Shown here: in pieces, positions 6,515 to 52,096 of the stretch
Numbering within the stretch: the first letter of the stretch is position 1
How the letters are laid out: each line of letters begins with the position of its first letter
Assembly (NCBI GenBank): GCA_900320565.1
Contig: ONSR01000010.1
Location: 1 to 55,483, forward strand
From: an uncultured Prevotellaceae bacterium
GTDB lineage: Bacteria > Bacteroidota > Bacteroidia > Bacteroidales > Bacteroidaceae
Direction of reading: 5' to 3'
Length of the DNA: 55,483 nucleotides
Program-made: the position numbers and the translations under genes
Notes under the pieces: generated by a model
What the model was told of the DNA's origin: nothing
The model's input: only the letters and a program-made list of their open reading frames with translations
Database searches by the model: none

Positions 6515-6624
6515 CGTGCCAGGTTGCAAAACGCGGCACGCCATCTTTGTTGAATCATCATGATAAATCAATTGCTGCATCATGATAAATCAATCAACTA
6601 AGCACGCCGACCTGAGTGATGCCT
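6515..6624. repeat. 22-bp array A1, five units
   Basis: Cores CGTG (6515), CACG (6537), CATG (6559), CATG (6581) and CACG (6603) are exactly 22 bp apart. Dyads are seen around some cores: GGC-AC-GCC and ATC-AT-GAT. Units 3 and 4 share CATGATAAATCAAT. The array begins 39 bp after the dehydrogenase stop and lies upstream of the TPR-AraC promoter. Confidence 0.85.
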
Positions 6625-6669
6625 GCAGCCGAATCAGGCATTACAACCTGTAAAAATGCCGGAATGCCC

Positions 6670-6699
6670 TTGCATATTCCACATTTTTTCGTATCTTTG
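6670..6699 (+). promoter_or_regulatory. Promoter of the TPR-AraC regulator
   Basis: TTG at 6670-6672, a 19-bp spacer, and TATCTTTG at 6692-6699. The ATG is 25 bp further on. Confidence 0.75.
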
Positions 6700-6724
6700 T
6701 GGGCGGAAACTAAACAAAAACAAA

Positions 6725-8353
6725 ATGAAACGAGGTTTGACAACGATACTGCTGGCATGGCTGATGAGCATCTGCGCGATGGCACAGGATGTGGAGTCGG
6801 CATTGACTAAGTTCGACAAGCAAACGAGCGTGGCTGCCGCTAACCTGTTCTTCAGCGAACTGCTTAAGGCTGAGTTCGTTGACGAGGAGACTGTGTTCCC
6901 TGACGGGACACCTGCCGACTCGCTCAAGCAGCAGGTATGGTACTGGGCTGGCGAGTGGATGTACGACCAGCAGCAGTATGAGCAGGCTGAGGCGTATGCG
7001 CTGAAGGCTCTGCCGCTGTGTCATGTAGGGAACGACTTCAAGGCTGACTGCTTGAACCTGCTGGGCCTCATCTACGTGCGAATGGGCGATGTGAAGAATG
7101 CTGCCAACTATGCCAAGCAGTGCCTCGAAATTGACATGAAGAGTGGCGATGACGACCGCATCTCGTCGAGCATGAACACGGTGGCTGGCATCTATATGGC
7201 TGGTTATCAGGCGAAAGAGGCGGAGCAGTACATCCTCGAAGCGCTGGAGCATGCCAACAAGGTGGACAACCCTGCCAGAAAAGCCGTCCTGCTCGGCATG
7301 GCCTCCGAGGTCTATCACACGCTTGGACAAGACGAGAAGGCCCTGACTTATGCCGAACAGGCCATTGAGACCGAGGAGAAACTTGGACGCTCGCCCAAAC
7401 TCATGATTCGCCTCTCACAAAAGGGTTCGGCCTTGCTCGGCTTGCATCGATACAAGGAGGCTGAGGACATCTACCGTCAGGTTGTGCCAGAGATGAAGGC
7501 GATGGGCGACTACCATTCCTATGCCATTGCCCTGAACCGATTGGGCATGTCGTTGCTCTGTCAGGAGCGGCAGCAGGAAGCCATCCCTTACTATCGCGAG
7601 GCAGCCGGCCTCTTCTCGAAGATGGGCGACCTCTACAACGAGATACACTCGCACAAAGGACTTTACGAGAGCTATTGGGCGCTGAATCCCGACTCGGCGA
7701 AGCTGGAGCTGGACCTCTTCGACCTGCTGAAGGACTCGCTCTACACGCACTCCACAGCCGATGCTCTGTCGCGCTACAATGCTGAGTTTGGCAACGACCA
7801 GCTGCAACAGGAGAACGCTGAAGTGCGTCAGGCTCATCGTCGCACCATCATCATTGCCACCTTGCTCGTCCTGCTGATTGCAGCCCTGGCCTGGTTCATC
7901 ATCCGTCGCAACCATCGTCGCTGGCAGAGGCAGATGCAGGAGCTGATACGGGAAATTGAGTTGCTCCAATCGAAGCGCGAAGCGGACACTGCAGAGCAGC
8001 CGAAGACAACGGAGGCACTGGACGAGAACGAGAAACTCTTCCTGATGCGAGTCATCGAAGCCGTGAACGCTGCAATGCCTCATGGAAACTTCGGCGTAGA
8101 GCAGATTGCTGCCGAGCTGAACATGAGTGTGCAGACCTTCCGACGCAAGGTGCAGAGTGCGGCTGGCGAGTCACCAAAGGCTTACATCCAAGCCATTCAA
8201 ATGGAAAAGGCCATCGTCTTGCTCAAAAACAAGCCCGACATATCCGTTGCACAAGTTGCCAATCTGTGTGGCTTCGACGAGACAAGTTCCTTCGGCCACA
8301 CCTTCAAACGGATTTATGGCTGCTCACCCTCGGAATACCGAGACAAACAATGA
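6725..8353 (+). CDS. Membrane-anchored TPR sensor with cytoplasmic AraC-type DNA-binding domain
   Basis: A 542-residue one-piece regulator. A signal peptide (MKRGLTTILLAWLMSICAMA) is followed by a periplasmic stretch of tetratricopeptide repeats (about residues 60-330, several with YxxAExxxxxAL patterns), a membrane helix (about 374-394, IIIATLLVLLIAALAWFII), a basic/coiled linker and a C-terminal AraC/HTH_18 domain ending FGHTFKRIYGCSPSEYR. The family links a periplasmic or envelope signal to transcription. Start chosen at the ATG beginning the signal peptide; an upstream in-frame ATG lies before the promoter box. Its target is unknown; the neighbours are a tiny lipoprotein and unrelated genes. 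A shorter protein of the same plan lacking the TPRs is at 30286. Confidence 0.88.
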   Translation: MKRGLTTILLAWLMSICAMAQDVESALTKFDKQTSVAAANLFFSELLKAEFVDEETVFPDGTPADSLKQQVWYWAGEWMYDQQQYEQAEAYALKALPLCHVGNDFKADCLNLLGLIYVRMGDVKNAANYAKQCLEIDMKSGDDDRISSSMNTVAGIYMAGYQAKEAEQYILEALEHANKVDNPARKAVLLGMASEVYHTLGQDEKALTYAEQAIETEEKLGRSPKLMIRLSQKGSALLGLHRYKEAEDIYRQVVPEMKAMGDYHSYAIALNRLGMSLLCQERQQEAIPYYREAAGLFSKMGDLYNEIHSHKGLYESYWALNPDSAKLELDLFDLLKDSLYTHSTADALSRYNAEFGNDQLQQENAEVRQAHRRTIIIATLLVLLIAALAWFIIRRNHRRWQRQMQELIREIELLQSKREADTAEQPKTTEALDENEKLFLMRVIEAVNAAMPHGNFGVEQIAAELNMSVQTFRRKVQSAAGESPKAYIQAIQMEKAIVLLKNKPDISVAQVANLCGFDETSSFGHTFKRIYGCSPSEYRDKQ

Positions 8354-8407
8354 GAGCAGCAGCAGCTCAGGAACAACCAGACGCTCAAAAATAATACAAA
8401 AAAAAAG

Positions 8408-8440
8408 AGAGCCGCACCTATCGGTACGGCTCTTTGCGTC
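8408..8440. terminator. Bidirectional intrinsic terminator
   Basis: AGAGCCG-CACC-TATC-GGTA-CGGCTCT forms a hairpin at 8408-8433, flanked by an A tract on the left and a T tract on the right. It can end both the regulator gene (plus) and the small lipoprotein gene (minus). Confidence 0.85.
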
Positions 8441-8460
8441 TTTTTTTGCTCGGCTGTTGA

Positions 8461-8643
8461 TTATTCAGCTACGGGGCAAGCGCAAGTGTCACATGCGCAA
8501 GTGTCGCAAGCGCAAGTGTCAACTACTGTCTCTTCAACAACTACAGTGTCGCTATCGCAGGTGGTACCCTGCTCAGTCTTCTGACCACAAGATGCGAAAG
8601 ATACAGCAACAACAGCTGCGAACAAAAATGCTAACTTTTTCAT
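8461..8643 (-). CDS. Tiny Cys-rich repeat lipoprotein
   Basis: A 60-residue predicted lipoprotein of unknown function. The signal peptide MKKLAFLFAAVVAVSFASC ends in a lipobox, with the Cys lipidated. The mature part is about 42 residues: an acidic/Val stretch, then CACDT repeated (DTCACDTCACDTCAC) and PVAE. It has eight cysteines including the lipidated one. At the DNA level the repeat has a 15-bp period. Start placed at the Met opening the signal peptide; an upstream in-frame Met adds 10 unlikely residues. It has its own promoter and a shared terminator, so it is a stand-alone gene. The repeated Cys pairs could bind metal or form disulphides; that is speculation. Confidence 0.8.
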   Translation of the reverse strand: MKKLAFLFAAVVAVSFASCGQKTEQGTTCDSDTVVVEETVVDTCACDTCACDTCACPVAE

Positions 8644-8695
8644 TTCTTTTTGCTTTTTAAACTTGTAAAACAATCAATTGTTCTTTAAAACGCTG

Positions 8696-8728
8696 CAAAG
8701 GTACGGCGATTTTTCGAATTACGTGCAA
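8696..8728 (-). promoter_or_regulatory. Promoter of the tiny lipoprotein gene
   Basis: On the minus strand TACCTTTG lies at 8703-8696, with a TTG at 8728-8726. The spacer is 22 bp, slightly long. The start codon is about 52 bp downstream. Confidence 0.6.
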
Positions 8729-8941
8729 CTTTTCAAGGATTTTTTTCATCTTTTTTGCAAGATTTTTTCTAAGTGCTTGAAAATCAGTATAGCGTTTTTC
8801 TCGTCAAAAAGCGATTTTCAGGCATTTTGCACCTAAAATGGCAAAAAAGTGACTTTAAGGCTTCGTCCTCGCAGACCAGCCCGCAATCTTAAGAAACTGT
8901 AATTTTTTTATATACATTATTCTTTGTTCGATGAATTTTCG

Positions 8942-8949
8942 TATCTTTG
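8942..8949 (+). promoter_or_regulatory. -7 box almost touching the start codon of the methylthiotransferase gene
   Basis: TATCTTTG at 8942-8949 is only four bases from the GTG at 8954. In Bacteroidetes transcription begins a few bases after this box, so the mRNA would begin at or beside the start codon. Confidence 0.65.
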
Positions 8950-8953
8950 CAGC

Positions 8954-10249
8954 GTGAATACATTAAAAGGTAAGAAGGCCGTTTACTATACCCTCGGCTG
9001 CAAGTTGAACTTCGCCGAGACAAGCACCATCCAAAAGCAATTGGAAGCTGTCGGTATAGAAACTGCCAAGAATGGCGAAGCGGCAGACATCTGCATCGTG
9101 AACACTTGCAGCGTCACAGAGGTGGCCGACAGCAAGAGCCGCCAAGCCATAAGCCGACTGCACCGCAAGCACCCAGAAGCACGCATCATCGTTACAGGAT
9201 GCTACGCGCAACTGCACCCCGAAAAGATTGCGGCTCTGGAAGGCGTAAGCCTCGTTATTGGAAAAGAGGAACTCCGCAACAACGTCATAGCGCTATTACA
9301 AGATAACGTCCTAACGAAAGAAGAGAATCCGAAAGTCCAACCCTTCGTCCCTGCTTGTGCTCGTGGTGAACGGACGCGCTTCTTCCTGAAAGTACAAGAC
9401 GGCTGCAACTACTTCTGCACATACTGCACCATCCCCTTCGCAAGAGGAAGGAGCAGGAACGGCAGTATCGCCTCACTCGTCAAGCAGGCTGAAGAGGCTG
9501 CTCAGCAAGGTGGCAAGGAGATTGTGCTGACCGGTGTCAACATCGGCGACTTCGGCAAGACGACAGGAGAGAGTTTCCTCGATCTGCTGAAAGCACTCGA
9601 CAAGGTGGAAGACATCCAGCGCTATCGCATCAGCAGCATAGAGCCCAACCTGCTCACAGAAGACATCATCCGCTTTTGCAGCCAGAGCCGAGCCTTCATG
9701 CCGCACTTCCACATCCCTCTCCAAAGTGGCAGCGACGAAGTGCTCAAACTTATGCATCGCCGCTACGACACAAAGTTCTTCGCTCAGAAGATAGAAGAGG
9801 TCAGGAAGTACATCCCAGATGCCTTCATCGGCGTGGATGTCATCGTGGGTATGCGAGGCGAGACAGACGAGCTGTTTGCTCAGGCTCGCGAGTTCATGCA
9901 GGCATTGCCCGTCAGTCAGTACCATGTATTCAGCTACAGCGAACGACCTGGTACAAAGGCTCTGCAGATTCCAGGCATCGTCACACCACAGCAGAAACAC
10001 GAACGCAGTCAGCAAATCCTGTCAATCAGCGACGACAAACTGCGCACATACTATAATAAATATAAAGGTCAGACACGACCAGTCCTGCTGGAACACAGCA
10101 TAAAGGGCGGCGTGATGCATGGCTTCACAGACAACTACATCCGCGTCGAAGTGCAGACAAAAGGGCTCGACAACACCATCGTCCCTGTTCAGTTGGGCGA
10201 ATGGAACGAAAAGGGAGACGCACTGATTGGGAAACTCAAGAAGAGTTAG
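8954..10249 (+). CDS. mtaB: tRNA t6A37 methylthiotransferase, MtaB type
   Basis: A 431-residue radical-SAM enzyme of the MiaB/RimO/MtaB family, which inserts a methylthio group into modified A37 of tRNA. The N-terminal UPF0004 domain begins VYYTLGCKLNFAE and includes IVNTCSVTEVAD. The radical-SAM cluster motif CNYFCTYC lies near residue 151, followed by IPFARGRSRN. A TRAM-like C-terminus is present (RPVLLEHS...FTDNYIRVEV). TLGCKLN and the overall length fit MtaB rather than MiaB. The start is GTG at 8954: no Met occurs between the promoter box and the conserved KKAVYYTLGCK. Confidence 0.9.
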   Translation: MNTLKGKKAVYYTLGCKLNFAETSTIQKQLEAVGIETAKNGEAADICIVNTCSVTEVADSKSRQAISRLHRKHPEARIIVTGCYAQLHPEKIAALEGVSLVIGKEELRNNVIALLQDNVLTKEENPKVQPFVPACARGERTRFFLKVQDGCNYFCTYCTIPFARGRSRNGSIASLVKQAEEAAQQGGKEIVLTGVNIGDFGKTTGESFLDLLKALDKVEDIQRYRISSIEPNLLTEDIIRFCSQSRAFMPHFHIPLQSGSDEVLKLMHRRYDTKFFAQKIEEVRKYIPDAFIGVDVIVGMRGETDELFAQAREFMQALPVSQYHVFSYSERPGTKALQIPGIVTPQQKHERSQQILSISDDKLRTYYNKYKGQTRPVLLEHSIKGGVMHGFTDNYIRVEVQTKGLDNTIVPVQLGEWNEKGDALIGKLKKS

Positions 10250-10264
10250 GAGTTAAGAATTAGC

Positions 10265-11278
10265 ATGAGTTTGAGCATCATCATATTGAATTGGAATGGT
10301 GAAGAGATGCTGCGTCGTTTCTTGCCTTCAGTCATCGAGCACTCGCCCGAAGCTGAGGTCGTTGTGGCAGACAATGGCAGCACCGATGGCTCGCTCAAAC
10401 TGATGGCCGAGCAGTTCCCCAACATCCGCACTATCATATTCGACCATAATTACGGCTTTGCCGAAGGCTACAACAAAGCCATCGCCGAAGTGGATAGCGA
10501 CCTCTGTCTCTTGCTCAACAGCGATGTCAGGGTTGAGGCAGGCTGGCTGAAGCCCATGCTCGATTACATGGAACAGAACCCCGGTATCGCAGCCTGTCAA
10601 CCCAAGATTCGATGCGAATGGGCTCCAGAGATGCTGGAATATGCAGGAGCTTGCGGTGGCTACATTGGTCGGCTGGGATTCCCGTTCTGTCGAGGCCGCA
10701 TCCTTGGCACAGTAGAACGCGACGAAGGACAGTACGACACCATAGCCTCTGTGGCTTGGGCAACAGGAGCAGCCCTGCTCATCCGTCGCAATGTCTATAT
10801 CGAGGCAGGCGGACTGGATGGCCGTTTCTTTGCTCATCAAGAAGAGATTGACCTGTGCTGGCGACTCAGAAGTCGTGGTTACGGCATAGTCTGCATTCCC
10901 GAAAGCGTCGTCTATCACGTTGGTGGCGGCACACTTCCTAAAGAGAGTCCACGAAAGGCTTACCTCAACTTCCGCAACAACCTGCTCCTCCTCTACAAGA
11001 ATATGCCAAAGGAGAGGTTCAGTTGCGTCATGTTTTGGCGTCGTTTGCTTGATGCAGCAGCAGCATTGCACTTCCTTGTTGGCGGGCATTGGGCTGCTTG
11101 CAAGGCTGTACTGAAAGCGCATCTCGACTTCCGTCGCATACAAAAGGACTTCAAGGAAGACAGAGACAAGAATCAGGCTGCAACCGTCGTGCCATACAAC
11201 GAGATACTCTCGCCCATAAACCTTCTTTGGGAATACTATGTCAAACGACACCATACATTTAAAGATTTAGGATTGTAG
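10265..11278 (+). CDS. Family 2 glycosyltransferase (rhamnosyltransferase-like)
   Basis: A 337-residue GT2 enzyme that transfers a sugar from a nucleotide donor, probably to a cell-surface glycan. The GT-A fold motifs are visible: SIIILNWNGEEML at the N-terminus, VVADNGSTDGS, the metal-site region LLLNSDVRVEAGW, and FFAHQEEIDLCWRLRSRG near the acceptor site. The layout matches WbbL-like enzymes. It follows the methylthiotransferase by 15 bp, where three degenerate heptamers (AGAGTTA, GGAGTTA, AGAATTA; 10242-10262) include the upstream stop codon. It may be co-transcribed with the exporter genes starting 13 bp downstream. Confidence 0.88.
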   Translation: MSLSIIILNWNGEEMLRRFLPSVIEHSPEAEVVVADNGSTDGSLKLMAEQFPNIRTIIFDHNYGFAEGYNKAIAEVDSDLCLLLNSDVRVEAGWLKPMLDYMEQNPGIAACQPKIRCEWAPEMLEYAGACGGYIGRLGFPFCRGRILGTVERDEGQYDTIASVAWATGAALLIRRNVYIEAGGLDGRFFAHQEEIDLCWRLRSRGYGIVCIPESVVYHVGGGTLPKESPRKAYLNFRNNLLLLYKNMPKERFSCVMFWRRLLDAAAALHFLVGGHWAACKAVLKAHLDFRRIQKDFKEDRDKNQAATVVPYNEILSPINLLWEYYVKRHHTFKDLGL

Positions 11279-11291
11279 ATAATAAGACAAT

Positions 11292-12623: not shown

Positions 12624-12652
12624 AACGCTATACATATTATATATTATATAAG

Positions 12653-14665: not shown

Positions 14666-14697
14666 CCCAACATAACACAGCAAGTTGATTGCATGTA

Positions 14698-14807
14698 CAT
14701 GTATATGCAATTGCACATACATGTAGTTGCAATTGCATATACATGTAGTTGCAATTGCATATACATGTAGTTGCAAAGAATTTGGCACGTTAAACGACAA
14801 AACTCAA
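14698..14807. repeat. 22-bp array A2, five units, inside the exporter operon
   Basis: CATG at 14698, 14720, 14742 and 14764, then CACG at 14786, are exactly 22 bp apart. The middle copies are nearly identical and contain TACATGTA and TGCAATTGCA, both perfect palindromes. The array fills the gap between the ATPase stop (33 bp upstream) and the permease start. Confidence 0.95.
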
Positions 14808-17697: not shown

Positions 17698-17714
17698 GTC
17701 GTCCGAAAACTAGG

Positions 17715-17802
17715 CGTGGTTAAATGCAAAACTTAACGTGTTAAGTTGGCAAAGTTAACGTGTTAAGTTTGGCATTTTAACGTGTTAAGTTTGGTGACTT
17801 GA
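17715..17802. repeat. 22-bp array A3, four units
   Basis: CGTG at 17715, 17737, 17759 and 17781. The second and third copies show near-perfect dyads (CTTAACGTGTTAAG is a 14-bp dyad around GT). Starts 18 bp after the GH43 stop. On the minus strand one copy contains TAACTTTG (17757-17750), a match to the -7 promoter box. Confidence 0.95.
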
Positions 17803-17842: not shown

Positions 17843-18490
17843 ATGACGCGGAAACAGCTTTATCGCGAGGTTGCGGCTTATTTCAAAGAGGCTATGCCAA
17901 ACGCAAAGACGGAGTTGCACTACGACAATCCCTTCCAGTTGCTCGTGGCCGTCATCCTCAGTGCACAATGTACTGACAAACGCATCAATCAGGTCACACC
18001 CCGCCTCTTCGAGGACTATCCCTGTGCCGAAGCGATGGCTTTGGCGAGTCCTGAAGTCATCTACGACTACATCCGGAGCGTTTCCTACCCTAACAACAAG
18101 GCCAAGCATCTGGTCGAAATGGCTCGAATGCTTTGGGAAAAGTATGGCGGAGAAGTGCCCCAAGACCTGAAGCAACTGACTGAACTTCCGGGAGTTGGCC
18201 GCAAGACTGCAAACGTTGTGCTAAGTGTTGTTTGGGGCGAGGCACGCATGGCAGTCGATACCCACGTCTTTCGCGTCAGCCATCGACTCGGACTTGTGCC
18301 CGATTCATGCAAGACTCCACTCTCGGTTGAGCAGATGCTCACCAAACATTTCACAGAGGAGGAGATTCCCGATGCACATCATTGGCTCATCCTCCACGGG
18401 CGATATACCTGCACAGCCTTGCGTCCGAAGTGCGACAAATGCGGCCTTGTTCACCTCTGCAAAACGTATCGAGGGAATATTCGGAGTTAA
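17843..18490 (+). CDS. nth: Endonuclease III (base-excision DNA glycosylase/AP lyase)
   Basis: A 215-residue Nth protein that removes oxidised pyrimidines and nicks AP sites. The helix-hairpin-helix motif ELPGVGRKTANVVLSV is followed by the catalytic Asp in MAVDTHVFRVSHRLG; the catalytic Lys lies in AQCTDKRIN. The C-terminal 4Fe-4S cluster ligands are present as CTALRPKCDKCGLVHLC (C-x6-C-x2-C-x5-C). Length is standard. Confidence 0.96.
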   Translation: MTRKQLYREVAAYFKEAMPNAKTELHYDNPFQLLVAVILSAQCTDKRINQVTPRLFEDYPCAEAMALASPEVIYDYIRSVSYPNNKAKHLVEMARMLWEKYGGEVPQDLKQLTELPGVGRKTANVVLSVVWGEARMAVDTHVFRVSHRLGLVPDSCKTPLSVEQMLTKHFTEEEIPDAHHWLILHGRYTCTALRPKCDKCGLVHLCKTYRGNIRS

Positions 18491-18494
18491 AACT

Positions 18495-19831: not shown

Positions 19832-19835
19832 TCGT

Positions 19836-19923
19836 AATTCATAATTCTCAATTCATAATTCATAATTAAGTCGAGGATTAGGTATTAGGATAACTTTGAA
19901 CTATGAATTATGAACTATGAACT
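19836..19923. repeat. Composite inverted heptamer element E3 ending in a start codon
   Basis: The left arm (19836-19867) is AATTCAT-type heptamers; the right arm (19900-19923) is ACTATGA/ATTATGA heptamers. TTCATAATT pairs with AATTATGAA. The centre includes TAACTTTG (19891-19898), a possible -7 promoter box. The ATG of the next gene (19917) is one of the repeat units. Confidence 0.8.
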
Positions 19924-20889: not shown

Positions 20890-23010
20890 ATGATAGACGC
20901 CAAGACACTTCGTCTCGTCACGCAAAACGGGCTTCAAGGGTTCGCCCAAGGTTGCATCTTGGACGGCATTGCTGCTCTTCGCACGCTCCTTCCCTATTGT
21001 GCTGCGGAGACAATCCTCTGTGCCGAAGCCGAAAGTCTTGAGAAGAACTATCATTACATGCTTTCGTTTCTGCGTGGCGGAGGCAGCGACGAGAAGCGAA
21101 ACGACGTGCAGGCAAAGATTCAGAGACAAGGTGTAGCACTCTTGGAGCAAGCCAACAGAGCCATTCGAATCAGCCTTGGCGGCGACCTTTACTGCAATGC
21201 CTTGAGCCGATTGAATGAGACTTATGGCGCACAAAACGTGCTCCTCGACAAGTGGAACAGCATCCTCACGCCCGAAGAAACCAATGATGTGCAGGACGAC
21301 CTCTTTGACCTCCTTTGGACTTCACCTTTGTGGACGGCCGAGGACACTGCTTTCTGGTACGACTTCCTCATGCGGCAACGGGAGATGGTGCAGCAACATC
21401 TCGAGGGAGCAATCTTCCTTTCCTTGTGGGAACACTATGATGCCGAGAAGATGCAACTGCTTAATCTTCTGGCAGAAAGCGAGTGCCAACGCACACACAT
21501 TCAGGCCGCCAGCCACCTCTTGCTGTTGAGGATTCGCCACAAAGAAGTGGCATCCTTAATGCTCTCACTACCCAAAAGTCTCCTTTCCCGCAAAGGGAAG
21601 AAACAGGTCGTTCAGGTGCAATACGAATTCCTGCTGATGCTCATCTCCGAAAAGGACTTGGAGAAGGAAGTGAGAGAGGCGGAATCCGTCACGAAAGAAC
21701 TGCTCTCGGGCAAAGATGCAGTGAATGCCGACAACATCAAGAACATTATTTCCCTGCGCGGACGATACCTGAGAAACCGCCTCCAACGCGGCCTCGACAT
21801 CAATCTCTCCAAGATACCCTTGCTCCACAACTGCAAGTATTTGCGGCGAGAGGCACATTGGTTCATGCCTTTCGACAAGACGCATCCCCTCTTCCAATCG
21901 GTCATGATAGACGAGAAAGGCAACGAGAAGCGTCATCTCTCCACTATGGTCGATTTCATTCTGGATTGCGATATTGACAAGATGGCGACCCTCTACCTCG
22001 TCAGCCACGACAATGACTTCTCGAGAGCCATCAAGCAATTGGACGAGCAGGAACTGCCCAACATGGAGAATGCCGTGATACCCGAGTACACGTTCCGTTT
22101 CGTCATGCAGGACCTCTTCCGCTTCTTCGGACATTCTCCCCTGCATTCCCAACTCATCAACCCTTTCCGAGACAACGTCACGCTGTTCGACTTCCCAGAG
22201 ATTGCCGCGTTGTTCACCATCGAAGATACCGTCAACTGCTGCAAATTGCTCTTCGAAATTGGTCGATACAAGCAGACGATAGCCATCCTCGATGATGCCA
22301 TCAATCGTTTGGGAGCCAGCGCCGCGGCCTTGCTTCTCAAGGGACAAGTGCTGAAAGAACTGAAGAAATATGCCGAAGCCATCAGTTGCGGGCGAAGTGC
22401 AGAAATGCTGGAGCCTGAGAACGACGACATCCTTCGCTTCCTCATCGAGTGCTACGCCTGGTTGGGACGCCACGAAGAAGAGCTCGAATACCTGCAGAAA
22501 CTCTCCGAAGTCATGCCCGAAAACAAGTCGCTACCCCGCCTTATCGCATCCGCAATAGATAAGGTGGGACGACGCGAGGAAGCCCTCGCCCTCTTCTTCA
22601 AACTTGATTATGAGGCCTCAGAGGACGACAAGGACTACGAAAATCTTGTCTCCTCCATTGCCAACACAGCGTTGGCCCTCGACAAACTCGACATTGCAGA
22701 GCGTTACACGAAGAAAGAACTGGACCTCAGCAACAGCAAGAAATGGGAGGCTCACCTCAGATTGGGACACATCCGGCTGCTCCAAAACGACTGGAAAAGC
22801 GCAATTGACAGCTACGAACAATTCGTCAACAACTTCGTCGAGCAACTTGTACCCGATGCAACCATCGCGATTGCCAAGCTCCGCGACAGTTGGGAAGTGC
22901 TCATTCAGAAAGGCATCAAGAGGGAAGACCTCCTGCTCATCCACGACATCCTGCAGGCCTCTACAGACACCACTTCCAAGCCCGATTCTTCACAACCCAC
23001 AAAAGGGTAG
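20890..23010 (+). CDS. Large cytoplasmic tetratricopeptide-repeat protein of unknown function
   Basis: A 706-residue protein with no signal peptide or membrane helix. The N-terminal half (about 1-430) is helical and not recognisable to me. From about residue 450 to 690 it carries TPR-like pairs (YKQTIAILDDAINRLG, KYAEAISCGRSAEMLEPEN, HEEELEYLQKLSEVMPENK, DWKSAIDSYEQFVNNF). The protein is of the kind conserved in Bacteroidales genomes without assigned function. The gene ends 10 bp before 22-bp array A4. Confidence 0.7.
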   Translation: MIDAKTLRLVTQNGLQGFAQGCILDGIAALRTLLPYCAAETILCAEAESLEKNYHYMLSFLRGGGSDEKRNDVQAKIQRQGVALLEQANRAIRISLGGDLYCNALSRLNETYGAQNVLLDKWNSILTPEETNDVQDDLFDLLWTSPLWTAEDTAFWYDFLMRQREMVQQHLEGAIFLSLWEHYDAEKMQLLNLLAESECQRTHIQAASHLLLLRIRHKEVASLMLSLPKSLLSRKGKKQVVQVQYEFLLMLISEKDLEKEVREAESVTKELLSGKDAVNADNIKNIISLRGRYLRNRLQRGLDINLSKIPLLHNCKYLRREAHWFMPFDKTHPLFQSVMIDEKGNEKRHLSTMVDFILDCDIDKMATLYLVSHDNDFSRAIKQLDEQELPNMENAVIPEYTFRFVMQDLFRFFGHSPLHSQLINPFRDNVTLFDFPEIAALFTIEDTVNCCKLLFEIGRYKQTIAILDDAINRLGASAAALLLKGQVLKELKKYAEAISCGRSAEMLEPENDDILRFLIECYAWLGRHEEELEYLQKLSEVMPENKSLPRLIASAIDKVGRREEALALFFKLDYEASEDDKDYENLVSSIANTALALDKLDIAERYTKKELDLSNSKKWEAHLRLGHIRLLQNDWKSAIDSYEQFVNNFVEQLVPDATIAIAKLRDSWEVLIQKGIKREDLLLIHDILQASTDTTSKPDSSQPTKG

Positions 23011-23019
23011 AAAACTCGG

Positions 23020-23107
23020 CACGTCGTCTTTGCAAACTCGACACGTTATCTTTGCGAACTTAACACGTTATCTTTGCAAGGTTAACACGTGTACCTTTCA
23101 GAATAGG
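23020..23107. repeat. 22-bp array A4, four units
   Basis: CACG at 23020, 23042, 23064 and 23086. Copies read like CGACACGTTATCTTTGCGAA, with TAAC-AC-GTTA dyads. Two copies contain a perfect TATCTTTG (23047-23054 and 23069-23076), identical to the -7 promoter box and pointing to the efflux operon. Starts 10 bp after the TPR gene stop. Confidence 0.95.
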
Positions 23108-28006: not shown

Positions 28007-28040
28007 GATTAAAGATTAAAGATTAAGGATTAAAGATTGA
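28007..28040. repeat. 7-bp tandem repeat (GATTAAA), about five units, before a start codon
   Basis: GATTAAA, GATTAAA, GATTAAG, GATTAAA and a partial GATTGA occupy the gap between the pump gene and the ATG at 28043. The arms of element E2 at 43211 use the same word. Confidence 0.9.
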
Positions 28041-29510: not shown

Positions 29511-30250
29511 TGTGGTTTGTTGGAGTTATTTTTCTCCGAACAAACCATTTTGAAACTTTGACAAAATGAAAGCTTTTCGGCAGTTTTGCTTACAGGCAAC
29601 TTTTTCCCGAACGCGTCAGAATCGCTTCTTTTGCCTCTGACCTTGTTTTTCGACCCTCGAGCAAAAATATGGGCTTAAATCGAAGACGGTTTCTCAACTG
29701 TCTCTGCCACAGATTGTTAGAAGAACCTCCACGCGACTGCCATTTTATCACGATTCATCGTTTTGCTATCTGTGGATGGCAAAATGGGCCGTTTTGACCC
29801 GAAATTGCACACTTTTTGACGTGAAGTCTCCACCAATTTCACACGAGAAATTTTCAAACGCGACACGTGAACTTTTCAAACTTCACGTGTGAACTTTTGA
29901 AAGTCCTCACGTCGAGTCGGCAAAATCGACGTGAAAAGCGCCCTTTTTCGACACTTTTCAATGTGTGCAATTTCTGACACTTTGACGGCATCTTATGCAT
30001 TTTGCTTACATTTTATCAAATACGGTATAGCATTTACCGCCTGACATCCCAGAAGATACTATAAGGAATCACACATTAATATTGTTTTCGTCGAACTGAC
30101 GTTAACGTAAGGACTTTTTCATCGGAAAGCAAATCTGAATTTCCACGCGCCGCTGAAAAAAATGCGATGAAACGGCAAAAAAGTGCACTATACGCACGAA
30201 ATGATAAATCTTTTTAATTTTCTGCTAACAATGGGTAGGACAAATAAATG
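29511..30250. other. Long intergenic region without a recognisable gene
   Basis: About 740 bp between the RND terminator and the next promoter. I see no conserved protein in any frame and no tRNA-like fold. It contains 22-bp array A5 (29820-29951). The rest is AT-rich unique sequence with CGTTTT-, TTTTCAAA- and CAAAAT-type words that give a loosely repetitive look. It could hide a decayed gene or an sRNA, but nothing in the sequence shows either. Confidence 0.6.
29820..29951. repeat. 22-bp array A5, six units
   Basis: Cores CGTG (29820), CACG (29842), CACG (29864), CGTG (29886), CACG (29908) and CGTG (29930), all 22 bp apart, with a near-match CACT at 29952. CTTCACGTGTGAAC is a dyad. AACTTTTCAAA/AACTTTTGAAA words lie between some cores. 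This is the array farthest from a stop codon. Confidence 0.88.
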
Positions 30251-38351: not shown

Positions 38352-38403
38352 CAAGTCAGGCACAGAAAATGCAGAAGCATTTGTGAAGCGTTGAAAAATT
38401 AGG

Positions 38404-38491
38404 CGTGCTTAATGGGGAATTTAGGCGTGTCGAATTGAAGAACTTGACGTGTCGAGTTGGAGAACTTGACATGTCGAGTTGAAGAAGCCGA
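38404..38491. repeat. 22-bp array A6, four units
   Basis: CGTG at 38404, 38426 and 38448, then CATG at 38470. The last two copies share AACTTGAC-N-TGTCGAGTT, dyads whose centre changes from GT to AT between otherwise equal copies. It lies 15 bp beyond the flippase stop on that gene's 3' side, and upstream of the GH92 promoter. Confidence 0.95.
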
Positions 38492-38505: not shown

Positions 38506-40020
38506 CTACTTCCTGAGTTTGCGAACCAAACACTTCATGCAATCCGACCGATGCAGCAAGCGAGAGACACTCAAAGCGACTGATGCAATGAAGGCAATTG
38601 CGCCGGCTGTGTACCGCTCCTCGTCAGAAGGAGAAACAAGATAACAGTACTCCACAGCCACAAGCAAGCAAGCAAGTTGCCCGAGGCAGAACAGGAATGT
38701 GCTGCTGCGGAAAGCAAATCCATAGCGGAAATGGCAGTAAATGAAATAGACGATAACGTCGTAGAGTGCTCCGACAGAGAACGCAATTCCGGCACCAACA
38801 AGTCCCCAAGAGTTGTAGCACCACCAGATGAGCAAGCCGAAGAACACATCAAAGCACACCTCAAGCACGAGATATGTGATGCTGTGACCTTTCGCCAGAA
38901 CGCTGTAACCCATTGGCAGAGAGATGCATCGCAGGAAAGAATAGAAGACAGAAAGCGTTGCCATGCCCGTCACGACAAGGAACTCGTCCTTGTAAAGCAG
39001 TTGCAACACAAACGGCATGAGCACGACAAGCAGAATCAACATAGGCGTGATGAGCAACGTACACACGTCAATCTGCTGATTGATGGTGTCGTTCATGCGT
39101 TGCCTGTCGTTATTCACGGCCGAGAGACGCGGGAAATAATCGGACTCCAAAGCAAGGAAGACCAGTCCCGAATAACCGACCATCACCTTCCAACCTGCGC
39201 TATAATAACCCAACTCTGCCTCCGAATGACTGGAAAGGATGATAGCCACGATGGCAATCGGCAGGAAGGAATTGGCCACGCCTGCCAGCACGTAAGGTAT
39301 GCCGACTTTTATGAGCGGCAAACCCTCGCAAAAGGTTTTCTGCGAGAGGGGTTTCACCTTGTACGACACCAAACGAAGCGAGAAAGAGAAATGCACGATT
39401 GCCGACAGGAAACCACAGGCAATCAGTCCAACTATAACGCCTCGAATGCCCAATAAATAGTAAAGAGGTATCGTGCAGAACAACGTTCCGAGAGCAAGAA
39501 TCGTCTCGATGACAGCCACCTTCCGCACCTGTCTGAGGCCTTTCAGAATAGCACATTCGCCTTCCGCAATGATGTTACTGACCGCCACCAACGAGGTGAG
39601 CATTACTGCAGGCCAGCGAGTCCAGTCGTGATTGAAATAGAAATAACTGATGATGGGCGAGAAGAAAAGGCAAATCAGGACAGACAGCATGGCCGACCAC
39701 AACACCCAGGTACGAATAACCATCACTTGATGTTCTATCTGCTCCTCTGTTCCGTTCTCGAACAACTCACTCGTCTTTCGCGTGGCATTCAAGGGAATAC
39801 CCATATTGCTGGCGTTGCTCAGAAACTCGAAGACAGCATTATAAGCCGTGATGAGGCCAATACCCCAACTGCCCAGGATTATAGCCGTAAGCTTCTCACG
39901 CACGACGCTGACCGACATCTTCAAGCCTTGTACACCACCAAAGATGCCCGTGTACTTCAATACATGGTCAAATGAGGTGTCGCTCGTCTCGGGGTTATGA
40001 AGATTCTTCAGCTCGTCCAT
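38506..40020 (-). CDS. Polysaccharide flippase, Wzx/MATE-like
   Basis: A 504-residue membrane protein with about 12-14 hydrophobic helices, of the oligosaccharide flippase group that moves lipid-linked O-antigen or capsule units across the inner membrane. The opening is typical (HVLKYTGIFGGVQGLKMSVSVVREKLTAIILGSWGIGLI). The neighbouring glycosyltransferase gene upstream supports a role in surface glycan synthesis. Start chosen at the second Met (40020), because the first would be leaderless relative to the promoter box at 40051-40044. Confidence 0.88.
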   Translation of the reverse strand: MDELKNLHNPETSDTSFDHVLKYTGIFGGVQGLKMSVSVVREKLTAIILGSWGIGLITAYNAVFEFLSNASNMGIPLNATRKTSELFENGTEEQIEHQVMVIRTWVLWSAMLSVLICLFFSPIISYFYFNHDWTRWPAVMLTSLVAVSNIIAEGECAILKGLRQVRKVAVIETILALGTLFCTIPLYYLLGIRGVIVGLIACGFLSAIVHFSFSLRLVSYKVKPLSQKTFCEGLPLIKVGIPYVLAGVANSFLPIAIVAIILSSHSEAELGYYSAGWKVMVGYSGLVFLALESDYFPRLSAVNNDRQRMNDTINQQIDVCTLLITPMLILLVVLMPFVLQLLYKDEFLVVTGMATLSVFYSFLRCISLPMGYSVLAKGHSITYLVLEVCFDVFFGLLIWWCYNSWGLVGAGIAFSVGALYDVIVYFIYCHFRYGFAFRSSTFLFCLGQLACLLVAVEYCYLVSPSDEERYTAGAIAFIASVALSVSRLLHRSDCMKCLVRKLRK

Positions 40021-40043
40021 CGCTTCTTTTTGCATTCGGGCTG

Positions 40044-41207: not shown

Positions 41208-41347
41208 CGATTATTATCAAAGGACCCCTAAAGGGCCCTCTCGAAGCGTGTGAATAGTCCGCATCATTGGCCTGAACGGACGGTTCGTGAATCGCTCGAC
41301 AAAATGAGAAATAAACTAGGTAGAAACAAACAAAAGTAAGACAAAGA
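41208..41347 (+). promoter_or_regulatory. Long 5' leader of rplM, possibly autoregulatory
   Basis: About 140 nt separate the predicted transcription start from the rplM ATG, much longer than other leaders here. It contains a GGACCCCTAAAGGGCCC hairpin-forming stretch (about 41222-41238) and GAACGGACGGTTCGTGAATCG, which can form a second small stem. Ribosomal-protein operons are often regulated by product binding to such leaders. No known leader motif was recognised. Confidence 0.35.
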
Positions 41348-43210: not shown

Positions 43211-43318
43211 GAGATTAAAGATTAGAGATTAAGGATTAAAGCTTGATACCATTTGGATTGTCTATTGCCAAAACAACTAAACTTTAATCCTTATTCTTTA
43301 ATCCTTAATCCTTATTTT
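43211..43318. repeat. Composite inverted element E2: GATTAAA arms around a GATACC...TTGCCAAAAC centre
   Basis: The left arm (43211-43241) is GATTAAA/GATTAGA heptamers. The right arm (43282-43318) is CTTTAAT/CCTTATT heptamers, the reverse complement. The centre (43242-43281) contains GATACC (43245), TGG-TTGT and TTGCCAAAAC (43265), shared with E1 at 1541-1665. It fills the gap between rpsB and tsf. Confidence 0.78.
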
Positions 43319-44401: not shown

Positions 44402-44405
44402 TGAT

Positions 44406-44442
44406 GGAAGATGGAAGAGGGAAGATGGAAGAGGGAAGATGG
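44406..44442. repeat. 7-bp tandem repeat (GGAAGAT/GGAAGAG), five units
   Basis: GGAAGAT and GGAAGAG alternate five times directly behind the tsf terminator. The 427-bp gap 44343-44769 holds this repeat, the terminator, two 22-bp arrays and a promoter, but no gene. Confidence 0.9.
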
Positions 44443-44481
44443 CTCCGCGCATAAAAAAAGCGCGTCTTGCAGAAGTCGGAA

Positions 44482-44569
44482 AAATCCTCCAGAGGATTTG
44501 CCCAAATCCTGCAGTGGATTTGATGAAATCCTCACGTGGATTTTGCCAAATCCTCACGTCGATTTTAGG
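44482..44569. repeat. 22-bp array A7a, four units with AAATCC...GGATTT dyads
   Basis: AAATCC at 44482, 44504, 44526 and 44548. Each copy is an 18-bp dyad: AAATCCTCCAGAGGATTT (perfect arms), AAATCCTGCAGTGGATTT, AAATCCTCACGTGGATTT and AAATCCTCACGTCGATTT. The cores at 44489 (CCAG) and 44511 (GCAG) deviate from C-R-Y-G; those at 44533 and 44555 are CACG. Confidence 0.95.
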
Positions 44570-44661
44570 AACGAGTCCCTCTTGCCTTAGGGACGTGTCC
44601 CTCTCCTCATAGGGACGTGTCCTTATTGCCATAGGGACGCGTCCCTCTCGCCAAAGGGACT
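44570..44661. repeat. 22-bp array A7b, AGGGAC-GT-GTCCCT type
   Basis: Cores CGAG (44572), CGTG (44594), CGTG (44616) and CGCG (44638), 22 bp apart, with a half unit AAAGGGAC closing the series at 44660. AGGGACGTGTCCCT and AGGGACGCGTCCCT are near-perfect and perfect dyads. It directly follows A7a with a phase change: 17 bp instead of 22 between the last core of A7a and the first of A7b. Confidence 0.95.
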
Positions 44662-44762: not shown

Positions 44763-44769
44763 TCGCGCA

Positions 44770-45412: not shown

Positions 45413-45428
45413 ACAAATATCAACTCGT

Positions 45429-49178: not shown

Positions 49179-49203
49179 GCCCTCTACTCAGTTATTATAG
49201 AGT

Positions 49204-50382
49204 ATGAAAGCACATAGAATCATCCGCATCGTGTTGCTGCTCGCCATATGCAGCACACAAACAGTCCTTGCGCAGGACAAGCAGAATATGTTCAATCCCA
49301 TACATACTGCCGTTACGTCGCTGAACATTGCTCCAGACGCACGTGCAGGTGCTATGGGCGATATGGGTGCCGCTACAGAAGCCGACATCTATTCGCAGTA
49401 TTGGAACCCTGCCAAATATCCATTTAATGTTGCCCGAGCAGGTGTAGGCGTCAGCTACACTCCCTGGCTGCGCAAGTTGGTCAACGACATCAACCTCGCC
49501 AACCTGACTGGCTTCTATCGTATTGGCAACTACAGCGCCGTGCATGCCTCTCTGCGCTATTTCAGCCTTGGTGAAGTATTTATAGATGGTATGGACGACA
49601 TGACCATCAAACCTTATGAGATGGCGATTGATGCCGGCTATAGCCGTATGCTCAGCGAGAAGTTCTCTATGGCCGTCAACCTGCGCTTCATCCTCTCCGA
49701 CATCAAATACAATTATCAAGACGATAGCAGGCCAGGCAAAGCCTTTGCTGCCGACATTGCCCTCTACCGCTTGGGCTACTTCATGGCAGGCAATCGCGAA
49801 TGCAGCTTTGGCTGGGGTATCAACATCAGCAACATTGGTTCGAAGATTTCATATGGTGGCAGCGAATACTCTGAATTCATTCCCACCAATCTGCGTATCG
49901 GTTGCAACATGACAATCCCATTCAACGAGTACAACAAGTTCAGCTTTGGCATTGACATGAACAAGCTCCTCGTGCCAACTCATCCAATGAGAGGCGAGGA
50001 CGAAACTGATGTGGACTTTGACGAGCGCGAGCGAAGGGATTACTATGAAGTATCGTCCATAGCCGGTATCTTCAAGAGCTTCGGCGATGCTCCTGGCGGT
50101 TTCAAGGAAGAGATGCAGGAGATTCAATGGAGTTTCGGTGCTGAATACACATACAACGACCGCTTCATGCTTCGTGCCGGCTATCACCACGAAGCAGAGA
50201 ACAAAGGTAACCGTAAGTATTTCACCGTCGGCGCAGGCTTCCACATGAGTGTCTTTACTATCGATGCCTCCTATGTCTTCTCTACTGCACAAAGCAATCC
50301 TCTCGACCAGACCATGCGCTTTTCGCTCGGCTTTGACCTTGATGGCATGCGCGACCTCTTCGGGAAGATGAGAAGAAGATAA
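49204..50382 (+). CDS. porV: Type IX secretion outer-membrane protein PorV (LptO)
   Basis: A 392-residue FadL-like beta-barrel that shuttles T9SS cargo from the translocon to PorU. A signal sequence (LLLAICSTQTVLAQ) is followed by the family opening MFNPIHTAVTSLNIAPDARAGAMGDMGAAT and the C-terminal FTIDASYVFSTAQSNPLDQTMRFSLGFDL. Together with porU it shows that the organism has a T9SS, although the core translocon genes are elsewhere. Confidence 0.94.
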   Translation: MKAHRIIRIVLLLAICSTQTVLAQDKQNMFNPIHTAVTSLNIAPDARAGAMGDMGAATEADIYSQYWNPAKYPFNVARAGVGVSYTPWLRKLVNDINLANLTGFYRIGNYSAVHASLRYFSLGEVFIDGMDDMTIKPYEMAIDAGYSRMLSEKFSMAVNLRFILSDIKYNYQDDSRPGKAFAADIALYRLGYFMAGNRECSFGWGINISNIGSKISYGGSEYSEFIPTNLRIGCNMTIPFNEYNKFSFGIDMNKLLVPTHPMRGEDETDVDFDERERRDYYEVSSIAGIFKSFGDAPGGFKEEMQEIQWSFGAEYTYNDRFMLRAGYHHEAENKGNRKYFTVGAGFHMSVFTIDASYVFSTAQSNPLDQTMRFSLGFDLDGMRDLFGKMRRR

Positions 50383-50383
50383 A

Positions 50384-50418
50384 AAGCCCCTCTCCTAACC
50401 TCCCCCAAAGGGGAGGAA
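50384..50418. repeat. GC-rich CCTCCCC/GGGGAGG inverted repeat
   Basis: CCCCTCTCCTAACCTCCCCC is followed by AAAGGGGAGG, a short hairpin after porV. It belongs to the same loose GC-rich intergenic family as 13822-13923 and 45391-45412. Confidence 0.6.
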
Positions 50419-50419
50419 C

Positions 50420-50447
50420 TTCAATGGTCAATATTCAATGTTCAATA
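50420..50447. repeat. 7-bp tandem repeat (TTCAATG) containing the ispF start codon
   Basis: TTCAATG, GTCAATA, TTCAATG and TTCAATA run through the porV-ispF gap. The ATG used by ispF (50438-50440) is the end of the third unit, and its second and third codons (TTC AAT) are the fourth. Confidence 0.88.
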
Positions 50448-50920
50448 AAATAAGGGTCGGTTTTGGTTTCGATGTCCATCAACTTGTGGAGGGACGTGAG
50501 TTGTGGCTGGGTGGCATACGCTTCGAGCACTCGAAGGGACTACTTGGGCACAGCGATGCCGACGTGCTTATCCATGCTATTTGCGATGCTTTGCTGGGTG
50601 CCGCCAACATGCGCGACATCGGTTATCACTTCCCCGACAATAGCGACGAGTTCCACAACATCGACAGCAAGGTGCTCCTTCGCAAGACGATTGACCTCAT
50701 CGCCACAAAAGGCTACAAGGTAGGCAACATCGATGCAACGGTTTGTGCCGAGCAGCCCAAGCTGAAAGCACGCATCCCCGAAATGCAGCAATGCCTCGCC
50801 GATGTGATGGGCATTGACGTGGACGACGTTTCCATCAAGGCTACGACTACAGAGAAGTTAGGCTTCACTGGTCGCGAAGAAGGCATCTCTGCTTATGCAA
50901 CAGTCCTCATTGAGAAATAG
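50438..50920 (+). CDS. ispF: 2-C-methyl-D-erythritol 2,4-cyclodiphosphate synthase
   Basis: A 160-residue enzyme of the MEP isoprenoid pathway. The zinc ligands and active-site motifs are present: GFGFDVHQLVEGRELWLGG (Asp and His ligands), LGHSDADVLIHAICDALLGA, and TTTEKLGFTGREEGISAYA near the C-terminus. The residues MFNK before IRVGFGFDVH are partly encoded by the heptamer repeat; the rest is a normal-length IspF. Confidence 0.97.
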   Translation: MFNKIRVGFGFDVHQLVEGRELWLGGIRFEHSKGLLGHSDADVLIHAICDALLGAANMRDIGYHFPDNSDEFHNIDSKVLLRKTIDLIATKGYKVGNIDATVCAEQPKLKARIPEMQQCLADVMGIDVDDVSIKATTTEKLGFTGREEGISAYATVLIEK

Positions 50921-50929
50921 CCCTTTCCC

Positions 50930-51973
50930 ATGAAAGAGCGCATCGAGTACATCGACCTTGCAAAAGGCATCTGCATCTTCCTGGTAGTACTGGATCATAT
51001 ATCTGTCGGAAAATACTTCTCGGGCGGGGACTATCCCATGAACGACATCTTCATGCAGACGAGGATGCCGCTTTATTTTATCCTCTCGGGCTTATTCTTC
51101 AAGGACTACGACGGCGGAATCCGCGAGTTCCTGCTGCGCAAGACGAACCGCATCCTTGTTCCATACCTCTTCTTCATGATTGTGTATCAGGCATTGGCAA
51201 AGTTGATGTCCACCCTCACAAGCATAGACACGACCGCGGCCAACATTACAGGCATCTGGGCGCCACTGTGGTTCCTGCTTTGTTTGTTTTGGATGAACGC
51301 CATCTTCGCCACGTTATATTATATCATCAAACGTTTCATTCCGAGCGGCTTGACGGCGGACGTGGCACTGGGCGGCTGCGTGCTTGCCATCGGTATTGCG
51401 GGCTACTACGCCGGAGACTTGCCGATGAACATCGGGACTGCAATGACAAGTCTGCCCTTCCTCTGGATAGGATACCTGCTGAACAGAAGACTGAGGTTTT
51501 TCCAAATGAGCATCAAGTGGCAATGGGCGCTGCTCCTTGGCATTGGTATGATTGCAGTGCTTCACTATACATACATGGGTGAGAACTTCTTCTACCTCAA
51601 TACATACAGTTCGCCATTGCTACTGGTTTACCTTGCAGGCCTGCTGGGAACGCTTGGTATATTGTTGCTAAGCCGTGTCATCAAGTGGCTGCCCATCATT
51701 TCCTACATCGGGCGCTACTCCATCATTGTGCTTTGCACCCACATGGCTGTTATGAAAGTCGTCCTCGCCCTGCTCAGCCTTTTGCCCAAGGATAGCGGAG
51801 CATCCTGTTGGTCAACGCTCTGGCAGAACAATGCCGTGCAGAGCTGGACAGTCCTGGCGCTCACGATAACGGGCTGCGTGTTCTGTTGCTGGCTCCTTCA
51901 CAACTACCTGCCTTGGTTCACAGCACAGAAAGACTTGATTAAAATAGGTAGTCAGAAAACGCAGGCAAGCTAG
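50930..51973 (+). CDS. Acyltransferase family 3 membrane protein (OafA/NodX-like)
   Basis: A 347-residue integral membrane acyltransferase with about ten helices. The N-terminus IEYIDLAKGICIFLVVLDHI carries the DxxKGxxxxxVxxxH pattern of family 3; further on, TRMPLYFILSGLFF and LWFLLCLFWMNAI are typical. Such enzymes O-acetylate or otherwise acylate surface sugars. It starts 10 bp after ispF, so the two genes are probably co-transcribed although functionally unrelated. Confidence 0.88.
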   Translation: MKERIEYIDLAKGICIFLVVLDHISVGKYFSGGDYPMNDIFMQTRMPLYFILSGLFFKDYDGGIREFLLRKTNRILVPYLFFMIVYQALAKLMSTLTSIDTTAANITGIWAPLWFLLCLFWMNAIFATLYYIIKRFIPSGLTADVALGGCVLAIGIAGYYAGDLPMNIGTAMTSLPFLWIGYLLNRRLRFFQMSIKWQWALLLGIGMIAVLHYTYMGENFFYLNTYSSPLLLVYLAGLLGTLGILLLSRVIKWLPIISYIGRYSIIVLCTHMAVMKVVLALLSLLPKDSGASCWSTLWQNNAVQSWTVLALTITGCVFCCWLLHNYLPWFTAQKDLIKIGSQKTQAS

Positions 51974-51986
51974 TTCGCAAACGTGG

Positions 51987-52096
51987 CACGTTAAGTTGGT
52001 CAAGATGGCACGTTAAGTTGGTCAAGATGGCACGCCATGTTTGCAAAGATGGCACGCCACGTTTGCAAAGATGGCACGCCACGTTTTCAACCGTCA
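51987..52096. repeat. 22-bp array A8, five units
   Basis: CACG at 51987, 52009, 52031, 52053 and 52075. Copies 3-5 read GATGGCACGCCATGTTTGCA or close to it, with a perfect ATGGC-AC-GCCAT dyad in copy 3. It starts 14 bp after the acyltransferase stop and ends over the stop codon of the convergent GH92 gene (52094-52096). Confidence 0.96.

Follow-up and report, generated by a model that had tools for sequence, protein, structure and literature searches.

Repetitive extragenic palindromic sequences and bacterial interspersed mosaic elements (REP/BIME) are found in Escherichia coli at the 3′ ends of transcription units. The window in this study, which is the whole of a 55,483-nucleotide contig (ONSR01000010.1, here C43) from the genome of an uncultured Prevotellaceae bacterium (GCA_900320565.1), carries between its genes tandem arrays of imperfect palindromes on a 22-bp period, which lie with a 3′ bias between genes and recur in the same gaps of several congeners with their units replaced. 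REP/BIME are presented in two papers as extragenic palindromes of high copy number that are regularly spaced within clusters, keep their palindromicity through sequence change, and are bound by proteins including gyrase, IHF and Pol I (PMC2817692, PMC3733652). Within the Bacteroidales, the account of the BrickBuilt/PgRS miniature inverted-repeat transposable elements (MITEs) of Porphyromonas gingivalis describes intergenic minisatellites with short units, variable copy number and conservation of locus between strains, composed of 23- or 41-nt units with a leader, a tail and IS5-type terminal inverted repeats, and also mentions 22-nt direct repeats in P. gingivalis W83 without locating them (PMC4596501). 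Intergenic tandem heptamer repeats are reported as widespread, a survey of 7006 prokaryote genomes having ranked them first in abundance (PMC6344855), and the intergenic tandem repeats of Borgs are described as having units unique to each locus, an inferred local origin and a fast turnover (PMC9879509).

The genome to which the window belongs is a draft of 2.63 Mb in 122 contigs, and is 89% complete. It was sampled as 40 stretches, the first 20 of which were taken by contig number only and so independently of hits, whereas of the second 20, 13 came from contigs to which an array had a BLAST match, 12 of those being picked for that reason. With the window this gave 41 sequences, and removal of three that were all N left 38 sequences (598,687 bp), in which all lag counts given here were made at score 18. 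Lag 22 was found in 82 segments and was the second commonest after lag 7 (104 segments, with 42, 10 and 8 at its multiples 14, 21 and 28); its double, lag 44, gave 60, lags 8 and 9 gave 16 and 8, and every remaining lag from 10 to 49 gave between 0 and 5. Autocorrelation at 22 bp is therefore present elsewhere in the sampled part of the genome, and the dispersed 22-bp class proposed in a preliminary description of the window is real and larger than was reported there. Extrapolation from the 26 arrays in the 248,480 bp of the first, hit-independent sample gives around 275 arrays per genome. For further analysis, 92 arrays merged at score 14 were reduced to a catalogue of 75 that scored at least 22 and were not mainly 11-bp repeats; the 17 excluded arrays include those at 6515 and 2–77 of the window.

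The catalogued arrays resemble REP/BIME in being extragenic palindromic units in high copy, with 75 of 75 intergenic and 63 of 75 dyadic. They differ from these elements, which are GTAG- and CGTC-tagged and associated with REP-associated tyrosine transposases (RAYTs), in their strict head-to-tail period of 22 bp and in the presence of several unit families per genome. A GTAG or CGTC tag outside the core in most units was found in only two of the 75 arrays (L032:5571 and L045:94), and the Y1 (RAYT) transposase domain PF01797 had no match in the genome, at its 89% completeness, while five of 14 control genomes were positive. The nearest described minisatellite found is BrickBuilt, which differs in unit length and ends: the arrays here are of 22 bp, dyadic, of several families and mostly without shared flanks, and the BrickBuilt unit lengths, as lags 23 and 41, were represented by 2 and 0 segments. 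A flank of at least 30 bp within 200 bp was shared with another array by 12 of the 57 non-composite arrays and by none of the other 45; the remaining 18 of the 75 form part of a composite cluster whose flanks are shared. Like the heptamer repeats, the arrays are fixed-period intergenic tandem repeats of unassigned function, but the heptamer period is 7 bp, and neither "22-bp" nor "22 bp" occurs in the main text of that survey (PMC6344855). Borg repeats, for their part, are generally perfect, and the string "palindrom" is absent from the main text of their description (PMC9879509).

The literature searched, in which the W83 genome paper was represented only through PMC4596501, gave no account of any Bacteroidales array class that is dyadic and has a 22-bp period. 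The preliminary description had likewise known of no such family, and no match emerged to those tested, namely REP/BIME, BrickBuilt/PgRS, clustered regularly interspaced short palindromic repeats (CRISPR), iterons, Rfam families and intrinsic terminators. A CRISPR was rejected because the units follow one another directly at 22 bp, without the unique, similarly long spacers that separate CRISPR repeats (no search for cas genes was made), and plasmid iterons because the arrays lie between ordinary genes on dozens of contigs. No Rfam match at gathering score lay over any array of the window. A mobile vector was also rejected, since phages and plasmids gave no match to the one array tested. The single exact 18-mer match among viral contigs was an isolated copy without a surrounding array.

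The units are contiguous, head to tail at 22 bp, and form imperfect palindromes of 18–22 bp. Alignment of the arrays on their dyad centres revealed several unit families in the genome, the commonest being CAAACTTAACACGTTAAGTTTG-like, with TTGCATATACATGTATATGCAA, TTCCCCTATAGGGCGTT, AGGGACGCGTCCCT, AAATCCTCACGTGGATTT and AACTTCTGCAGAGAAGTT as further ones. The 63 dyadic arrays are those more dyadic than column-permuted copies of themselves (p ≤ 0.05, 60 permutations each). The CRYG core attributed to most units is the majority core in 51 of the 75 arrays, taking the more CRYG-rich of the two dyad centres, but other cores, including TATA, CTGC and GCAG, occur as well. Among these 51 arrays, pairing at distances 4, 5 and 7 from the centre was 0.66, 0.63 and 0.49, against 0.28, 0.29 and 0.29 expected from independent columns, and was reached in 0 of 500 shuffles in each case, showing that the dyad exceeds what base preferences give. 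At distances 2 and 11 pairing was not raised, with 185 and 79 of the 500 shuffles reaching it. At the innermost pair the relation is reversed, with a pairing of 0.21 against 0.46 expected, and the core is therefore asymmetric, reading CACG or CGTG.

Changes that keep the pairing were also in excess. In a gapless alignment (A1) of 37 of 52 three-unit windows, from which seven of the TTGC...GCAA type and eight others (five with only two CRYG cores and three with three) were left out, 111 cells were changed on both sides, compared with 41 (sd 8) when shuffled and 28–49 when the partners were slid. Of the 257 pairs that changed from one unit to the next, 29 (11%) were compensatory, compared with 2–5% for slid pairs. 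The proposal that the dyad is kept while the arm words differ is borne out by these changes together with the 63 dyadic arrays, and the likeness of units within an array also finds support. A possible common end motif, GACTGGCG, was noticed by eye at several array ends but is not claimed here. Some loci hold composite clusters of two or three unit families (AGGGAC, AAATCC, AACTTC) with flanks common to several loci (Table 1). Three of these (L015, L016 and L040) start at contig base 1, the position that an assembly-breaking dispersed repeat would give.

Genes were called with a home-made codon-usage caller, which found 472 genes and called 86% of the DNA coding. Against this background the intergenic position that had been described for the window holds throughout the catalogue, as 71 arrays had no overlap with a called gene and the other four overlapped one by 2–10 bp. 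In terms of setting, 43 arrays were co-directional, 9 convergent, 11 divergent and 12 at sequence ends, and gaps of at least 100 bp held an array in 41 of 131 co-directional, 9 of 25 convergent and 8 of 44 divergent cases. Within co-directional gaps, 38 of the 43 arrays were nearer to the upstream stop than to the downstream start (p = 2.5e-7), at median distances of 71 bp and 171 bp, respectively.

Orthologous gaps were compared in relatives of the same genus (76 comparisons over 28 gaps), with arrays on both sides in 15, only here in 8, only in the relative in 2 and in neither in 51. When gaps shorter than 100 bp here or 60 bp there were set aside, the counts became 15, 6, 2 and 22 (Fisher p = 1.4e-5), although the comparisons share gaps and are not independent. 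Counted by distinct gap, an array was present in at least one relative for six of the eight gaps with an array here, compared with two of the 20 gaps without one, and the control lags 18–20 and 23–25 gave no shared arrays at orthologous gaps. The sequences of the arrays are no more alike for this, with a median local score of 8 in the 15 orthologous pairs and also of 8 in 46 unrelated-gap pairs from the same genomes, the latter scored as the better of two strands. The same gaps therefore tend to hold 22-bp arrays in congeners while the unit sequence is replaced.

The gap downstream of the EF-Ts gene illustrates this replacement, with AAATCC and AGGGAC units in the window, a GTTCACGTGGGTCGTTTGCAAA unit in G007, and other words, such as ACTCCAGAGAAGTT, in G023 and G011. 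The gap 3′ of EF-Ts is 351 bp in both G023 (L167) and G011 (L168), while later array units differ in place, and a matched arm pair (CAAATGGACGTGTCCATTTG) stands in G011 where G023 has another word. Along the window, the gap of the array at 17706 holds a GGTTAACC-type array in G023 and G011, and other 22-bp arrays were found at the gap of 23012 in G023 and G011 (none in G012 at score 14), at that of 38396 in G012, L051, G023 and G011, and at those of 44565 and 51972 in G007, G023 and G011.

The spread of the commonest unit family was followed with a covariance model, R1, which had at least 150 matches at E ≤ 0.001 in its own genome (the best 150 of 1089 candidates scored), some arrays being matched twice or on both strands. 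With 130 candidates scored per genome, 14 of 40 genomes in a genus sample matched at E ≤ 1e-5, and abundance was bimodal, with 63–133 matches in nine of the 40 and none in 26. In a family sample scanned under stricter filters, 5 of 61 genomes matched, three from the same genus and two from one other genus (2 and 1 matches). In a phylum sample 1 of 25 did, this being the genome itself. By these counts the R1 family is largely bound to the genus and patchy within it.

The 22-bp period reaches beyond the R1 family and is also present in further genera of the same taxonomic family. Within the genus, genomes in which R1 is sparse or missing can still carry 22-bp arrays of another kind (TTGCTTCATCGCGATGAAGCAA in G012, for example, and TGGCACA..TGTGCCA in G016); no array was found in the 20 kb sampled from each of G022, G015 and G010. 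In loci whose EF-Ts is 59–70% identical (L072–L128, titled Bacteroides, Phocaeicola, Prevotella, Parabacteroides and others), 20 of 57 contained a total of 31 period-22 arrays, 15 of them dyadic at p ≤ 0.05, and periods 21, 23 and 24 were represented by 8, 9 and 7 arrays. Locus L076, from B. faecis MAJ27, carries an array at 18145–18240. Samples from outside the genus, which were small, gave 5 arrays in 140 kb of other genera of the family (7 loci), none in 224 kb of other Bacteroidales families (13 loci), one in 340 kb of other orders of the phylum (17 loci, four genomes) and none in 200 kb of E. coli K-12.

Within the window, Tandem Repeats Finder placed period-22 arrays at 14688, 17719/17729, 23012/23020, 29840, 38426, 44482, 44566 and 51972/52002. 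In a scan of lags 8–60, lag 22 formed eight clusters and was the only lag with more than four; lag 44 formed four, and the only other lags seen were 11 and 33 (at 1–83) and 14 and 21 (near 90–170). Seven of the eight clusters coincide with regions of the preliminary description, which had listed eight; the region not recovered, 6515, is the weakest, although its cores are 22 bp apart. The region given as starting at 44482 does consist of 22-bp repeats but is in fact two adjoining arrays of different unit families (AAATCC and AGGGAC) and different register. The estimate of about 41 units agrees with the 43 CRYG tetranucleotides counted in 22-bp chains over the eight regions, some of which are offset doubles. 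The array at 17706 is the top match in the genome of a 66-column model whose alignment includes this array itself. Positions are collected in Table 1.

Table 1. Arrays with a 22-bp period in the window, and composite clusters in the sampled genome.
Feature	Position	Remarks
Weak 22-bp array	6504..6614	Cores CGTG/CACG/CATG/CATG/CACG at 6515, 6537, 6559, 6581, 6603; score 17, under the catalogue cut-off of 22
22-bp array, units palindromic over almost their full length (TTGCATATACATGTAGTTGCAA); core CATG	14688..14776	In the relatives G023 and G011, ~3 bp separates the flanking genes
22-bp array	17706..17794	Cores CGTG at 17715, 17737, 17759, 17781
22-bp array directly 3′ of the stop codon at 23010	23012..23090	Cores CACG at 23020, 23042, 23064, 23086
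22-bp array	29812..29940	Cores CGTG/CACG, 29820 to 29930, six in register; strong part 29841–29902
22-bp array, arms AACTTGA/TCGAGTT	38396..38486	Cores CGTG/CATG, 38404 to 38470; 3′ of minus-strand gene 38506–40035
22-bp array of AAATCC...GGATTT dyads	44482..44566	Lies 3′ of EF-Ts, beyond a terminator-like hairpin (by eye)
Second, adjoining 22-bp array of AGGGACGTGTCCCT dyads	44565..44660	Register differs from the 44482 array
22-bp array filling a convergent gap, unit GGCACGCCACGTTTGCAAAGAT	51972..52090	Cores CACG, 51987 to 52075
Composite clusters	L015:1-247; L016:1-221; L020:567-897; L039:5008-5257; L040:1-298; L043:11247-11591; window 44482-44660	

The eighth lag-22 cluster, at 1–90, is an 11-bp array (2–77, six copies of TTCAATATGAG) that was not part of the preliminary description; 11 bp being half of the 22-bp period, it is also periodic at 22 bp, and similar 11-bp-periodic stretches occur at L022:11696 and L023:1597. 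The period-7 repeats of the window lie at 102–153, 1119–1150, 2863–2889, 19835–19867, 19892–19923, 28007–28038, 43212–43241, 43284–43314, 44403–44442 and 50420–50447. Across the 38 sequences, 84 of the 104 segments of this class are intergenic and 20 genic, and the class lacks the 3′ bias, with 29 segments closer to the start and 22 to the stop. The one Rfam match in the window is an L13-Bacteroidia ribosomal protein leader RNA at 41222–41293 (RF03127, 55.6 bits). Genes of the window include those for PorV, proteins with BspA-type leucine-rich repeats, GH92 and EF-Ts. For EF-Ts, the closest relatives that carry a name are metagenome-assembled genomes titled Bacteroidaceae or Prevotellaceae, mostly from herbivore guts, and together with the gene content they assign the window to the Bacteroidaceae in the broad sense.

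The reading that is favoured here, at a probability of roughly 45%, is that the arrays are intergenic dyad satellites at the DNA level, similar to REP/BIME but set on a 22-bp ruler, and that they act through a putative symmetric DNA-binding protein. Units would be copied inside each array and from locus to locus, in the way that satellite DNA undergoes concerted evolution, while the ruler and the symmetry would be held by selection, most simply because a dimeric protein docks on successive units. The dimeric binder suggested in the preliminary description would fit the arrays. Such a protein would be tolerant of many arm sequences, reading spacing and symmetry with only loose sequence needs. 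From their position and build, the arrays may act in the manner of BIMEs, in a topological role or as boundaries between adjacent transcription units. More tentative is a broader form of this reading, in which the arrays would be a bacterial counterpart of satellite DNA throughout the Bacteroidaceae in the broad sense, with a unit length of 22 bp, mirror symmetry and address inherited, letters replaced, and a putative symmetric machine reading spacing and dyad.

Several observations weigh against the proposed DNA-level satellites. No candidate for the protein emerged, and the freedom of the arms is odd, since a homodimer that recognises a fixed half-site would be expected to preserve sequence and not symmetry alone. 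The suggestion that each unit presents the same DNA face at two helical turns is only approximately correct, because 22 bp corresponds to 2.10 turns of 10.5-bp B-DNA, a drift in phase of ~34 degrees per unit by our own arithmetic. The dyad test was failed by 12 of the 75 arrays, single-sided changes between adjacent units (210) outnumber the 29 compensatory ones, and 11 arrays sit in divergent gaps. Besides the shared gaps behind the ortholog comparisons, in 8 of the 23 comparisons where this genome has an array the relative has none; the array at 14688 is missing in G023 and G011, and that at 38396 in G007. Three of the 15 orthologous pairs score clearly above the unrelated median (17, 18 and 21, with unrelated pairs reaching 34), so some orthologous arrays may share descent. 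Raw counts on the CACG strand at distances 3–9, where G-U pairs exceed A-C pairs (81 to 62), belong here too, as does the ability of neutral hairpin-templated correction to produce dyads, though it could not easily produce the ruler or the address.

An action at the RNA level, with tandem hairpins of 7–9 bp in 3′ untranslated RNA serving as terminators or stabilisers, would agree with the 3′ bias, and the single strands of six of the seven window arrays do fold better than shuffles (z −2.7 to −7.3 with DNA parameters), the exception being the array at 23012 (z 0.3). However, when the 43 co-directional arrays are read on the gene-sense strand, G-U pairs are no more numerous than A-C pairs, whether at the CRYG centre (86 and 103) or the best-dyad centre (85 and 113), and core orientation is unrelated to the gene strand, the sense-strand core being CACG in 12 arrays and CGTG in 16. 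The G-U surplus in the raw CACG-strand counts, in which 21 arrays were richer in G-U and 14 in A-C, is not seen at distances 4–9 (44 G-U, 55 A-C). By our own sums, the three pairs just beyond the CRYG core on this strand have 66 G-U pairs where column expectation gives ~88, and observed to expected ratios at distances 3–5 were ~0.75 for G-U and ~0.52 for A-C. Neither kind is therefore favoured, A-C even less than G-U; a G-U richness at the pair next to the core in the CACG-oriented alignment vanished against the same expectations. An absence of G-U bias is also compatible with RNA, since a hairpin needed on both strands would show none. TTTTT within ~30 nt downstream, a feature of intrinsic terminators, followed 3 of the 43 co-directional arrays, as in the background (0.08). 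Of the 26 arrays at least 40 bp from the stop, 13 have a T-run between the stop and the array. After EF-Ts, the array lies beyond a terminator-like hairpin at the end of the gene, as also in three relatives (by eye), and the lack of Rfam matches over the arrays points the same way. Pairing and placement favour a DNA-level dyad, and RNA-level elements appear quite improbable; the hairpins with a CRYG tetraloop that had been suggested earlier find little support.

It is also unlikely, though less so, that the arrays are selfish palindromic repeats of a REP- or MITE-like kind, spread by a transposase acting in trans and piling up where they are least harmful, which would yield intergenic position and 3′ bias without any function. 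The bimodal abundance of R1 within the genus would suit such spread, as would the 18 arrays in a composite cluster and the 12 others that share a flank. The 45 non-composite arrays without a shared flank do not, nor do the negative searches for a Y1 transposase in the 89% complete genome and for phage or plasmid matches to the one array tested, or the rarity of GTAG/CGTC tags; furthermore, the same gaps hold arrays with different units, and unrelated units keep the 22-bp period. A similarly low probability is given to a functionless mutational self-organisation, in which slippage duplicates units and hairpin-templated strand switching perfects their arms. Hairpin-templated correction of quasi-palindromes is known, and it would account for a dyad kept as the sequence varies, for the likeness of units within arrays and for the compensatory changes. 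Neutral slippage, however, is not expected to fix 22 bp over unrelated sequences and species or to recur at the same gaps, and the arrays were absent or rare in the loci sampled outside the family (none in other Bacteroidales families, one in other orders, none in E. coli).

Bacterial intergenic repeats are usually defined by sequence, and sequence-based repeat finders would therefore split or miss a class such as this one. If period, symmetry and place are indeed inherited while sequence is not, something in abundant gut bacteria reads the geometry of intergenic DNA. Finding that reader would link the evolution of repeats to the organisation of the chromosome, and would provide a clear test of selection versus mutational bias in the evolution of palindromes.

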